Shown here: positions 19,078 to 40,167 of the stretch, piece by piece
How the letters are laid out: the number at the start of each line of letters is the position of its first letter
How positions within the stretch are numbered: position 1 is the stretch's first letter
Origin: Candidatus Uhrbacteria bacterium GW2011_GWF2_39_13
GTDB taxonomy: Bacteria; Patescibacteriota; Patescibacteriia; UBA9934; GWF2-40-263
Assembly: GCA_000993535.1 (NCBI GenBank)
Contig: LBWG01000005.1
Span: 1 to 48,433, forward strand
Length of the DNA stretch: 48,433 nucleotides
Direction: 5' to 3'
The notes under the pieces: generated by a model
Databases searched by the model: none
What the model was told of the DNA's origin: nothing
Seen by the model: the letters and a program-made list of their open reading frames with translations, nothing else
Program-made: the position numbers and the translations under genes

Positions 19078-19096
19078 AACAATGCCTATTCAATTA

Positions 19097-19142
19097 CCCC
19101 TTCGACTCCGGTTCGTTGGACGAACCTCCGCTCAGGGAATAT
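19097..19142 (+). repeat. Dispersed palindromic repeat, copy 1
   Basis: A REP-like unit: ccccttcgact, a variable hairpin (here ggttcg-ttgga-cgaacc), then ctcagggaatat. Four more copies in the same orientation occur at 34878, 38127, 42555 and 43825. It lies downstream of the helicase gene and upstream of the Nudix gene. Confidence 0.9.
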
Positions 19143-19178
19143 ACGCTTTGATTCAAGATCATCTTGTTGCGAAGTTCT

Positions 19179-38195: not shown

Positions 38196-38753
38196 ATGGA
38201 AGACTTTATTGAAGAAATAGACACCCCTCAAATCGCACAGGTGAGCAAGCCTGCTCCAAATTTTAATGTAGAAACCGTTATAAAGGCAGGTGAATTTTCC
38301 CAAGCAAAACTTGAAGATTATAAAGGAAAATGGCTTGTGCTCTTTTTCTATCCACTCGATTTCACGTTTGTTTGCCCTACAGAAATTACAGGTTTCTCAA
38401 AACGTTATGAAGAATTTAAAGCACTTAACGCACAAGTGCTTGGTGGGTCCACTGACTCCATCCATTCTCATAAAGCTTGGTTGAAAGAATTAGGAGAACT
38501 TCAGTATCCCCTTTTCTCTGATATTACCCGAGATATGAGCTGGGACTATGGCGTATTGCTGCCTGAGGAAGGAATCGCTCTTCGAGGAACATTCATCATC
38601 GATCCAGAAGGAATCCTACGTTATGCCCTGTATCATGACCTGGGTGTGGGACGATCAGTAGACGAAACGTTGCGAGTACTCAAAGCGCTTCAAACCGGAG
38701 AACTGTGTCCCGTTGATTGGACACAAGGAAAAGAAACACTAGGAAAAGCATAA
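38196..38753 (+). CDS. 2-Cys peroxiredoxin (AhpC/Prx1 type)
   Basis: 185 aa. Peroxidatic C60 lies in FTFVCPTE and resolving C171 in ELCPVDW, so it is a typical 2-Cys enzyme reducing hydrogen peroxide and organic peroxides. Its reductase partner could be the nearby glutaredoxin-like protein at 39934, but that is only positional. It ends at a strong terminator. Confidence 0.95.
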   Translation: MEDFIEEIDTPQIAQVSKPAPNFNVETVIKAGEFSQAKLEDYKGKWLVLFFYPLDFTFVCPTEITGFSKRYEEFKALNAQVLGGSTDSIHSHKAWLKELGELQYPLFSDITRDMSWDYGVLLPEEGIALRGTFIIDPEGILRYALYHDLGVGRSVDETLRVLKALQTGELCPVDWTQGKETLGKA

Positions 38754-38761
38754 AATGCTAA

Positions 38762-38788
38762 TAAAACCGCTAAAAAGGCGGTTTTATG
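38762..38788 (+). terminator. Terminator of the peroxiredoxin gene
   Basis: A 9-bp stem (taaaaccgc with gcggtttta) and 7-base loop; the right arm supplies the T-run. Confidence 0.8.
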
Positions 38789-38789
38789 A

Positions 38790-38817
38790 TTGACAAAAAG
38801 GCTTTTTGATATATTAT
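38790..38817 (+). promoter_or_regulatory. Promoter of the G+C-rich small-protein islet
   Basis: TTGACA (38790-38795), 16 bp, TATTAT (38812-38817), immediately after the peroxiredoxin terminator. Leader of about 48 nt. Confidence 0.75.
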
Positions 38818-38871
38818 TCTGTGTTCGAGCATTAGGCTTGGATAGAAAAACTCCCGTATTAAGAGGATCAA

Positions 38872-39009
38872 ATGAACCTGAACAATGGACTTACAGCGAG
38901 GAATATTTTTATTGTAGTGTCAGCCGTTGTTCTTTGTTTGTGGGTTTTGTATGGACTCAGCCTCTTTATCAGCACCTTGGTGAATGCGTCACTCCTGTGG
39001 AGGGGGTGA
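38872..39009 (+). CDS. 45-aa single-helix membrane protein
   Basis: AAGAGG lies 5 bases before the ATG. The 45-aa product is a short polar N-terminus (MNLNNGLTARN), one hydrophobic helix (about 12-40) and LLWRG at the end. I do not recognise it. After the TGA the same frame stays open for 16 more codons that end in ETPRCVVTK, a tail homologous to that of the next gene (see findings). Confidence 0.55.
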   Translation: MNLNNGLTARNIFIVVSAVVLCLWVLYGLSLFISTLVNASLLWRG

Positions 39010-39060
39010 TTCCCATCTTTAGTGACCCATGAAACACCACGTTGTGTGGTGACTAAGTAG
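39010..39060 (+). other. Coding-like tail ETPRCVVTK, homologous to 39361-39403
   Basis: This stretch, in frame with the 45-aa gene after its TGA, reads ...THETPRCVVTK-stop. The tail at 39361-39403 reads ...GETPRCAVMTE-stop. Four of the differences are synonymous third-position changes, which suggests protein-level selection. The DNA also forms a hairpin (caccac/gtggtg) that keeps pairing in the second copy (cgccgc/gcggtg). Confidence 0.45.
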
Positions 39061-39089
39061 TCCTCTAAAAATTCTCAGGAAGGGAAGAA

Positions 39090-39403
39090 ATGATGAACTC
39101 AAGCAAGCGTACTCAGAAGCAGAAGGGTTTTACTATGGTAGAGCTGATGATCGTTTTGACGATGGGGGTGATTTTCGTAGCGACATCGCTGCTATCAAGT
39201 ATCTGGAAGGTCAGGGATATCGAGAGGTGCGTCTGATCGAGACGTACCGAGTCAACCCCCAGGATGTCGGTTGTATGCCCGCGGACAATGCGGCTTTCCG
39301 ACTCAGTGCACAGGATAGTGATGGAATCGAACATTCGTCTCTGACCCTGTGCTGTCTTGGTTCCGTTGGTGAAACGCCGCGGTGTGCGGTGATGACCGAG
39401 TAA
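39090..39403 (+). pseudogene. Prepilin-like gene, frame broken or recoded
   Basis: From the ATG at 39090 (purine-rich AGGAAGGGAAG upstream) the first frame encodes 48 aa with a textbook type IV prepilin cleavage and helix signature, KGFTMVELMIVL, after a basic leader, and stops at 39236. The -1 frame is open from 39053 to 39403 and reads plausible globular sequence (AIKYLEGQGYREVRLIETY, then VNPQDVGC), ending in ETPRCAVMTE. A single -1 shift would join the two into a pseudopilin-sized protein of about 100 aa. It may be a pseudogene, an assembly error or programmed frameshifting; the 48-aa form could also be made as is. Confidence 0.5.
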
Positions 39404-39427
39404 TCAAACTCAAGAAAAGGAGACGGA

Positions 39428-39862
39428 ATGTACGGACTCGCATTTGGTATCGTGATTGGCGCGTTCTTTTATTTTTTCGGTAGCAACGATAGTCTCACCC
39501 TTCACTATGCCAGCCAGTTCTGGATGTACTGGTATGGATTCTGGAGTGTAATCCAGGGTTTCTTTGTTCTATTGTCCAGTCTCGGTTTCATCGCGAGCGG
39601 AACGGTAGTAGGAGGAACTGCTGGTGGTCTGCTGGGTGGCCTCCTGGGGAGTGTCATTGGAACAGGGGGAAGCCTACTGATGTGGATTCCTTTCCTAGCA
39701 CGGTATGCCCTCCTGATCGGTGGTCCCTATCTGATGTGGACTGCCAGTAATCCCATCAATAATGATGGATTCCAGATGACACAGGCTATAATAGGAGCAA
39801 TCCTGTTCCTCATCGGGTTATTGATGATACGACAATCACCCAAGAAGGCGACCAGAGCTTGA
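39428..39862 (+). CDS. Glycine-rich multi-helix membrane protein
   Basis: 144 aa, about four membrane helices, with a glycine-zipper-like stretch (GGTAGGLLGGLLGSVIGTGG) in the middle. AAAGGAGA lies 5 bases before the ATG. I do not recognise a family. Glycine zippers occur in pore-forming and membrane-inserting proteins, but no function is claimed. A hand count of the line starting 39601 gives 60% G+C, far above core genes. Last gene of the islet; two terminators follow. Confidence 0.7.
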   Translation: MYGLAFGIVIGAFFYFFGSNDSLTLHYASQFWMYWYGFWSVIQGFFVLLSSLGFIASGTVVGGTAGGLLGGLLGSVIGTGGSLLMWIPFLARYALLIGGPYLMWTASNPINNDGFQMTQAIIGAILFLIGLLMIRQSPKKATRA

Positions 39863-39877
39863 TCAACCACGCAACAT

Positions 39878-39905
39878 AAAGCAGTTCTCTACGGACTGCT
39901 TTTTG
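39878..39905 (+). terminator. Terminator of the small-protein islet
   Basis: An 8-bp stem (aaagcagt with actgcttt), 9-base loop, then T. Confidence 0.8.
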
Positions 39906-39908
39906 ATT

Positions 39909-39936
39909 TAAAATAAGGGACAAGTCCCTTATTTTA
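39909..39936. terminator. Bidirectional terminator overlapping the glutaredoxin stop
   Basis: A 12-bp stem (39909-39920 with 39925-39936) and 4-base loop caag. Its right arm contains the stop codon of the minus-strand gene at 39934. Confidence 0.75.
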
Positions 39937-40167
39937 TTTAAGCTGTAACAGCTCATTTAATTTTTCTTTATCAAATCCTATGACGATTTGCCCATCGATA
40001 TCGGTGACCGGGACACCCATTTGACGAGATTTTTGGATCATTTCTTGTGCCTTTTCTTGAGAAGAAGAAACGTCAATATTCGTATATGTAACCTCATGTT
40101 CATCCAGATACTTCTTCAATTGTATACAAAAAGGACAGGTTGGAGTGGAATAGATAGTGATGGACAT
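39934..40167 (-). CDS. Glutaredoxin-like protein
   Basis: 77 aa thioredoxin-fold protein with the redox motif C11-P-F-C14 and the cis-proline strand GVPVTDI. Size and motif match the NrdH/YruB-type glutaredoxins, which reduce disulphides, for instance in peroxiredoxins or ribonucleotide reductase. It lies 3 bp after pepA. Confidence 0.93.
   Translation of the reverse strand: MSITIYSTPTCPFCIQLKKYLDEHEVTYTNIDVSSSQEKAQEMIQKSRQMGVPVTDIDGQIVIGFDKEKLNELLQLK

Follow-up and report, generated by a model that had tools for sequence, protein, structure and literature searches.

A probably decaying pilin and membrane-protein cassette at a variable spot in Uhrbacteria genomes

The window analysed here, 48,433 nucleotides long, is contig C5 of a 1.16-Mb metagenome-assembled genome (MAG; G000) that is 68.6% complete. 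In this Uhrbacteria (Patescibacteria) contig, an islet of small genes sits between two conserved gene runs that converge on it, and the question is what kind of locus this is and whether its genes still work. A preliminary description had read it as a unit of three working genes with Shine-Dalgarno sequences, encoding a 45-aa single-helix protein, a prepilin-like protein and a glycine-zipper membrane protein (TM). All three ORFs are present (38872-39009, 39090-39236 and 39428-39862), and Shine-Dalgarno-like stretches read from the sequence precede them; the working unit was not borne out, the pilin being frame-broken and the first ORF being without a homologue found. The islet is probably an accessory cassette of pilin and membrane-protein genes that diverges fast, is partly decayed and occupies a variable spot between the two converging runs. 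The features of the spot and its anchors are as follows.

38196..38753, + strand: left anchor, peroxiredoxin (AhpC/TSA) gene, prx (PF00578, E 4.7e-40); gene order kept in relatives
38763..38785, + strand: left terminator-like hairpin AAAACCGC..GCGGTTTT, read from the sequence
38790..38817, + strand: promoter-like TTGACA-16-TATTAT, matching at 11/12 positions (promoter scan)
38823..38843, + strand: 5' leader hairpin GUUCGAGC-AUUAG-GCUUGGAU (-8.3 kcal/mol, z -4.3), near the expected transcript start
38872..39009, + strand: 45-aa single-helix ORF, probably truncated (ORF list; PF12666 at E 0.11 only)
39010..39060, + strand: possible C-terminal remnant of a second pilin (..HETPRCVVTK-stop), in the frame of the 45-aa ORF and past its TGA
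39090..39236, + strand: 5' part of the prepilin gene, a 48-aa ORF with KGFTMVEL (PF07963, E 2.9e-7)
39179..39403, + strand: cysteine-containing C-terminal domain (C domain) of that prepilin, read in the -1 frame (67% identity to the G005 pilin, E 3.1e-30)
39428..39862, + strand: 144-aa glycine-zipper membrane protein with four hydrophobic segments (homologues in G005, G011 and G047; alignment; hydropathy)
39878..39902, + strand: right terminator-like hairpin at the end of the run (terminator scan)
39934..40167, - strand: right anchor, converging glutaredoxin gene (PF00462, E 2e-17)

The family search of the anchors covered prx and the glutaredoxin gene only. From their sequences, we take the genes before prx to be metG, rsmI and a DUF3179-like gene, and those that converge after the glutaredoxin gene are presumably a ferredoxin-like gene (in most relatives) and pepA. 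The latter is present in 41 of 42 family genomes, and both anchors are readable in 33 of the 42 (32 by script, the window by hand). Nine genomes were left out of the tally: G053, which is without pepA; G011 and G016, with no prx at the site; G056, which was not fetched; and G010, G043, G044, G046 and G049, where the site is at or near contig ends or no prx is in the fetched stretch. The spot is empty (<200 nt) in 20 of the 33 assessable genomes and filled (at least 500 nt) in 13. By eye, its cargo consists of pilin/TM or C-domain genes in G000, G005, G047 and G048, an assignment that profile matches back for the last three. G042 has a 145-aa protein that looks C-domain-like by eye and has no match with the profile. 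For the remaining cargo, also assigned by eye, G003, G019 and G055 have lipoproteins, G001 a CPBP-like membrane protein, G021 an HD-like protein, G015 HNH and glyoxalase-like proteins, and G050 and G054 unassigned proteins. In G011, a TM protein lies between the DUF3179-like gene and pepA. The G005 cassette comprises genes for a membrane protein (141 aa), a pilin (143 aa), TM (143 aa) and a C-domain-like protein (119 aa), and that of G047 genes for a 126-aa pilin followed by TM, so that the pilin-TM pair recurs in two relatives of the window; the first ORF of the proposed unit was found in none. The cassette occupies the same spot in two genera. Within G000 itself, a search for further copies of the islet returned only short chance matches.

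The proposed link to pilin-like surface proteins is upheld by the PF07963 match at the N-terminus, with one correction: the 48-aa ORF described as prepilin-like makes up the 5' part of a gene that extends further. The G005 pilin has the same N-terminal motif (PF07963, E 1e-7), and the window gene is a net 73 nt shorter than the G005 gene. Among 72 genomes of the order, the pilin profile matches at E <1e-30 in four places: full-length pilins with the C domain in frame in G005, G047 and G011 (E 2.7e-57 or better), and the C part in G000, where the C domain alone is in frame (E 5.9e-37). Helix and globular domain thus share one reading frame in the three relatives and not in the window. Because the frame is broken and a net 73 nt are lost, the window copy was not counted among working pilin genes. 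No classical slippery heptamer for programmed -1 frameshifting was seen by eye in the overlap, which has only a run of five G. The pilin model has a long helix and beta strands (mean pLDDT 73); its best match in the PDB has Z 6.0, no better than common folds (the search's usual best is 7-8). No pilin is among the PDB matches listed for this model, a weak absence. Solved structures matched to profile A6 were weak pilin helices, and there were none for profiles A5 and A1. The prepilin-peptidase model PF06750 matches in four of six genus genomes, with no match in G000 (68.6% complete) or G005 (96%).

The intact relatives resemble type IV minor pilins (PF07963) in their prepilin motif, N-terminal helix and small C-terminal beta domain. 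They differ from these in that the C domain falls below the cut-off of every curated family searched, that GC3 is far from that of ordinary pilins sampled in relatives, and that the partner is a glycine-zipper membrane protein; in this assembly, the gene is also broken.

No homologue was found for the 45-aa ORF. The possible remnant that follows it resembles a pilin end (..GETPRCAVMTE-stop), with ETPRCVV matching ETPRCAV, and its score against the window's own pilin C domain was reached by 8 of 2000 shuffles; against the pilins of G005 (154 shuffles) and G047 (471 shuffles) the score was not significant. It is plausible, though weakly so, that the 45-aa ORF is a truncated tandem paralogue of the pilin. 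The TM gene is the sole intact gene of the islet in this genome. Its product has a stretch with invariant glycines in the alignment, and its structure model is poor (pLDDT 59.5). TM was found in G000, G005 and G011 (three of 38 genomes searched) and, in another search, in G000, G005 and G047 (three of 42); in two relatives (G005 and G047), its gene comes after that of the pilin. The non-pilin products (45 aa and 144 aa), which the preliminary description had left unrecognised, match no curated family at its cut-off.

An individual promoter and two terminators had been proposed for the islet. The right hairpin was found by the terminator scan; the left one was missed by that scan, was read by eye, and is conserved in G005. 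The promoter is present as described, though the region has two promoter-like sites in total, not above the shuffle mean of 2.6. TTGACA also occurs at the hairpin tail of G005, G047 and G048. The leader hairpin, of 8 bp, lies directly 3' of the -10 element and may shield the 5' end of the message. The same hairpin (-8.3) is found in the leader of the G005 141-aa gene with one pair changed on both sides and, in addition, a G-U turned into G-C; in the leader of the G005 pilin gene the sequence is kept but the stem is unstable (-1.3). Among six genus genomes, leader copies with zero mismatches are found only in the islets of G000 (one) and G005 (two); with three mismatches allowed, matches are near the control level. 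The leader sequence TTCGA-CATTAGGCTTGGAT is at 38823-38843 in the window and at G005:C14:77376-77395 and 77854-77873, before two genes. Its presence before two genes of G005 and once in the window suggests that promoter and leader were duplicated together with genes.

The G+C content of about 60% reported for lines 39241 and 39601 is confirmed (61.7% and 60.0%, the two highest of 20 lines) but does not extend to the spot as a whole (46.7%, against 38.8% for the window); the spot nevertheless contains the window's G+C maximum at 300, 435 and 1116 nt. The islet ORFs have GC3 of 0.53-0.69, above that of 40 window genes (mean 0.30, maximum 0.506), which together with the 20 empty spots agrees with the idea of a compositionally distinct accessory cassette. 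In G000, the 22 other N_methyl matches have GC3 of 0.31-0.49, all under the islet values. Ten HX9DG prepilin sites (TIGR04294) were found in contigs C4, C8, C15, C22, C23, C26 and C33 of G000 and none in five genus mates. Their absence from the genus mates indicates that part of the G000 MAG is probably foreign, despite an estimated contamination of 0.55%; the foreign part may be of PVC-type origin. Because many contigs with pilins of this genome are thus probably foreign, its own pilins were replaced as a control of composition by pilins of G005, G047 and G048. The eight ordinary pilin genes sampled there have GC3 of 0.36-0.46, against 0.47-0.84 for the eight islet genes, the lowest being the G005 119-aa gene (0.47) and the G005 TM gene (0.51); the islet composition is thus not that of ordinary pilin loci in these sister genomes. 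Islet GC3 exceeds that of all compared flank genes in G047 (2/2), G048 (2/2) and G011 (1/1), and in 3/4 cases in G005; this excess is absent in G042. Recent import from a single donor was considered and is disfavoured, because islet GC3 tracks the host, from 0.35 (G011) to 0.84 (G047), and the cassette is at the same spot in two genera.

The islet genes are constrained yet more diverged than their neighbours, silent sites included. Between G000 and G005, dN/dS is 0.23 for TM and 0.14 for the pilin C domain, against 0.035-0.094 for five flank genes, and dS is 1.41 and 1.60, against 0.64-0.98. Exchanged alleles would be expected to give this pattern, and so would a difference in mutation or codon pressure. 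A recent break is compatible with the low dN/dS of the C domain that lies out of frame, but so is an assembly error.

The frame break is known from one MAG assembly, which includes foreign-looking contigs. If it were an assembly or sequencing artefact, the pilin would be intact in the organism and the cassette would work as in G005. The strong constraint on the C domain, the run of five G in the overlap, and a MAG that is incomplete and has HX9DG prepilin contigs absent from five genus mates all speak for this, but the 73-nt net difference exceeds a base-calling slip and the neighbour genes are intact, and an artefact is rather unlikely. Decay is the preferred reading of the break. That the 48-aa ORF is itself the product, a helix-only minimal pilin with an expendable C domain, is very improbable. 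The helix is in frame (hydropathy peak 2.28) behind a Shine-Dalgarno-like stretch, and profile A6 weakly resembles a short Geobacter pilin domain (7tgg, E 0.0013); against this, none of the three close homologues is shortened, each having an in-frame C domain, and that domain is constrained.

It is also improbable that the islet is a phage-derived, 'moron'-like cassette of surface proteins that changes the cell surface in phage-related competition, its pilin C domain being kin to the envelope-anchored T4 gp39.1 domain and to jumbo-phage pilins. In tblastn, the G005 pilin reaches a Xanthomonas/Erwinia jumbo-phage pilin (29% identity over 70% of the query, E 0.04), and this phage pilin matches phrog_902 (E 4.1e-15) and T4-like gp39.1. 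The extra 141-aa protein of G005 (L002:2443-2868) matches phrog_30702 (E 2.7e-15), Cellulophaga phages and an uncultured 462-kb phage. Alignment of profiles A4 and A5 by hhalign gives a probability of 79% with four Uhrbacteria sequences but only 38% with six; neither the G005 pilin nor the window C domain matches phrog_902, and a BFVD structure search returned 0 matches at E <= 0.001. TM has no match in phages or plasmids, the pilin has none in plasmids, and neither has relatives in viral contigs. The C domain is like the phrog_902/T4 gp39.1 family in the pattern GY-DV ... GC--D--F ... C joined to an envelope anchor, which in the Xanthomonas phage protein is a pilin anchor, as here; it is unlike that family in having no significant single-sequence match, and the T4-like members are lipoprotein-like (lipobox by eye). 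The kinship is that of a candidate homologue, a suggestive lead. A wider form of the idea, quite unlikely on present evidence, is that the Uhrbacteria spot holds a rapidly turning-over envelope cassette whose displayed domain is common to T4-like and jumbo phages, an exchanged module on pilin or lipoprotein anchors that perhaps blocks or mediates contact with phages or host cells. A new mechanism is less likely than the ordinary reading of a decaying accessory islet.

In such an accessory islet, an intact cassette (G005, G047) would be transcribed from its own promoter, and the N-terminal helix of the intact prepilin would anchor a small cysteine-containing beta domain, with the four-helix glycine-zipper protein encoded next. 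The prepilin may undergo processing and then be displayed on the cell, within a pilus as a minor pilin or at the membrane. The membrane protein is its predicted partner, and the role of the cassette may lie in contact with other cells or with phages; nothing points to the competence role once proposed. In this genome, the prepilin gene would be about 73 nt short and out of frame, the first ORF would be a probably truncated relative, and the membrane-protein gene alone would be intact. Pili are prime candidates for host recognition by Patescibacteria; in a saccharibacterium, host binding is aided by a thin pilus and by PilX2, a minor pilin of it, as summarised in PMC12206443. Host- or phage-specific differences of the surface could be stored in an optional pilin cassette that diverges fast and keeps to one spot, and this spot is readable in any Uhrbacteria genome.

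The possibility of a mobile cassette is not supported if mobility is taken strictly: the spot has no Rfam match (there are 0 in the window), no integrase-like ORF and no terminal inverted repeats, no inverted repeat of at least 12 nt bounding the islet. The coding-strand ORFs of the spot match no transposase or integrase family, and those on the minus strand are <75 aa. A 13-nt direct repeat of 92% identity at 38801 and 39898 is likely due to chance. Patescibacteria genomic islands, as summarised in PMC12455944, have accessory genes that differ between relatives in streamlined genomes; the Uhrbacteria spot is like them in its variable accessory genes, a likeness of general character, and no integrase or attachment site was found here. 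The literature titles and abstract openings listed contained no description of the islet or the spot. Within the searches made, the cassette is new as a locus and ordinary in kind.

Two repeats were observed elsewhere in the window. A stretch of 45-50 nt at 19094-19143 has many copies in G000 and G005, with about 90-98% identity. The contig ends (1-99 and 48335-48433) are inverted copies of one 99-nt sequence, with near-identical copies at the ends of contigs C6, C7, C9 and C11; similarity to G005 begins at base 100, so the contig ends look like the edge of a multi-copy repeat where the assembly breaks.
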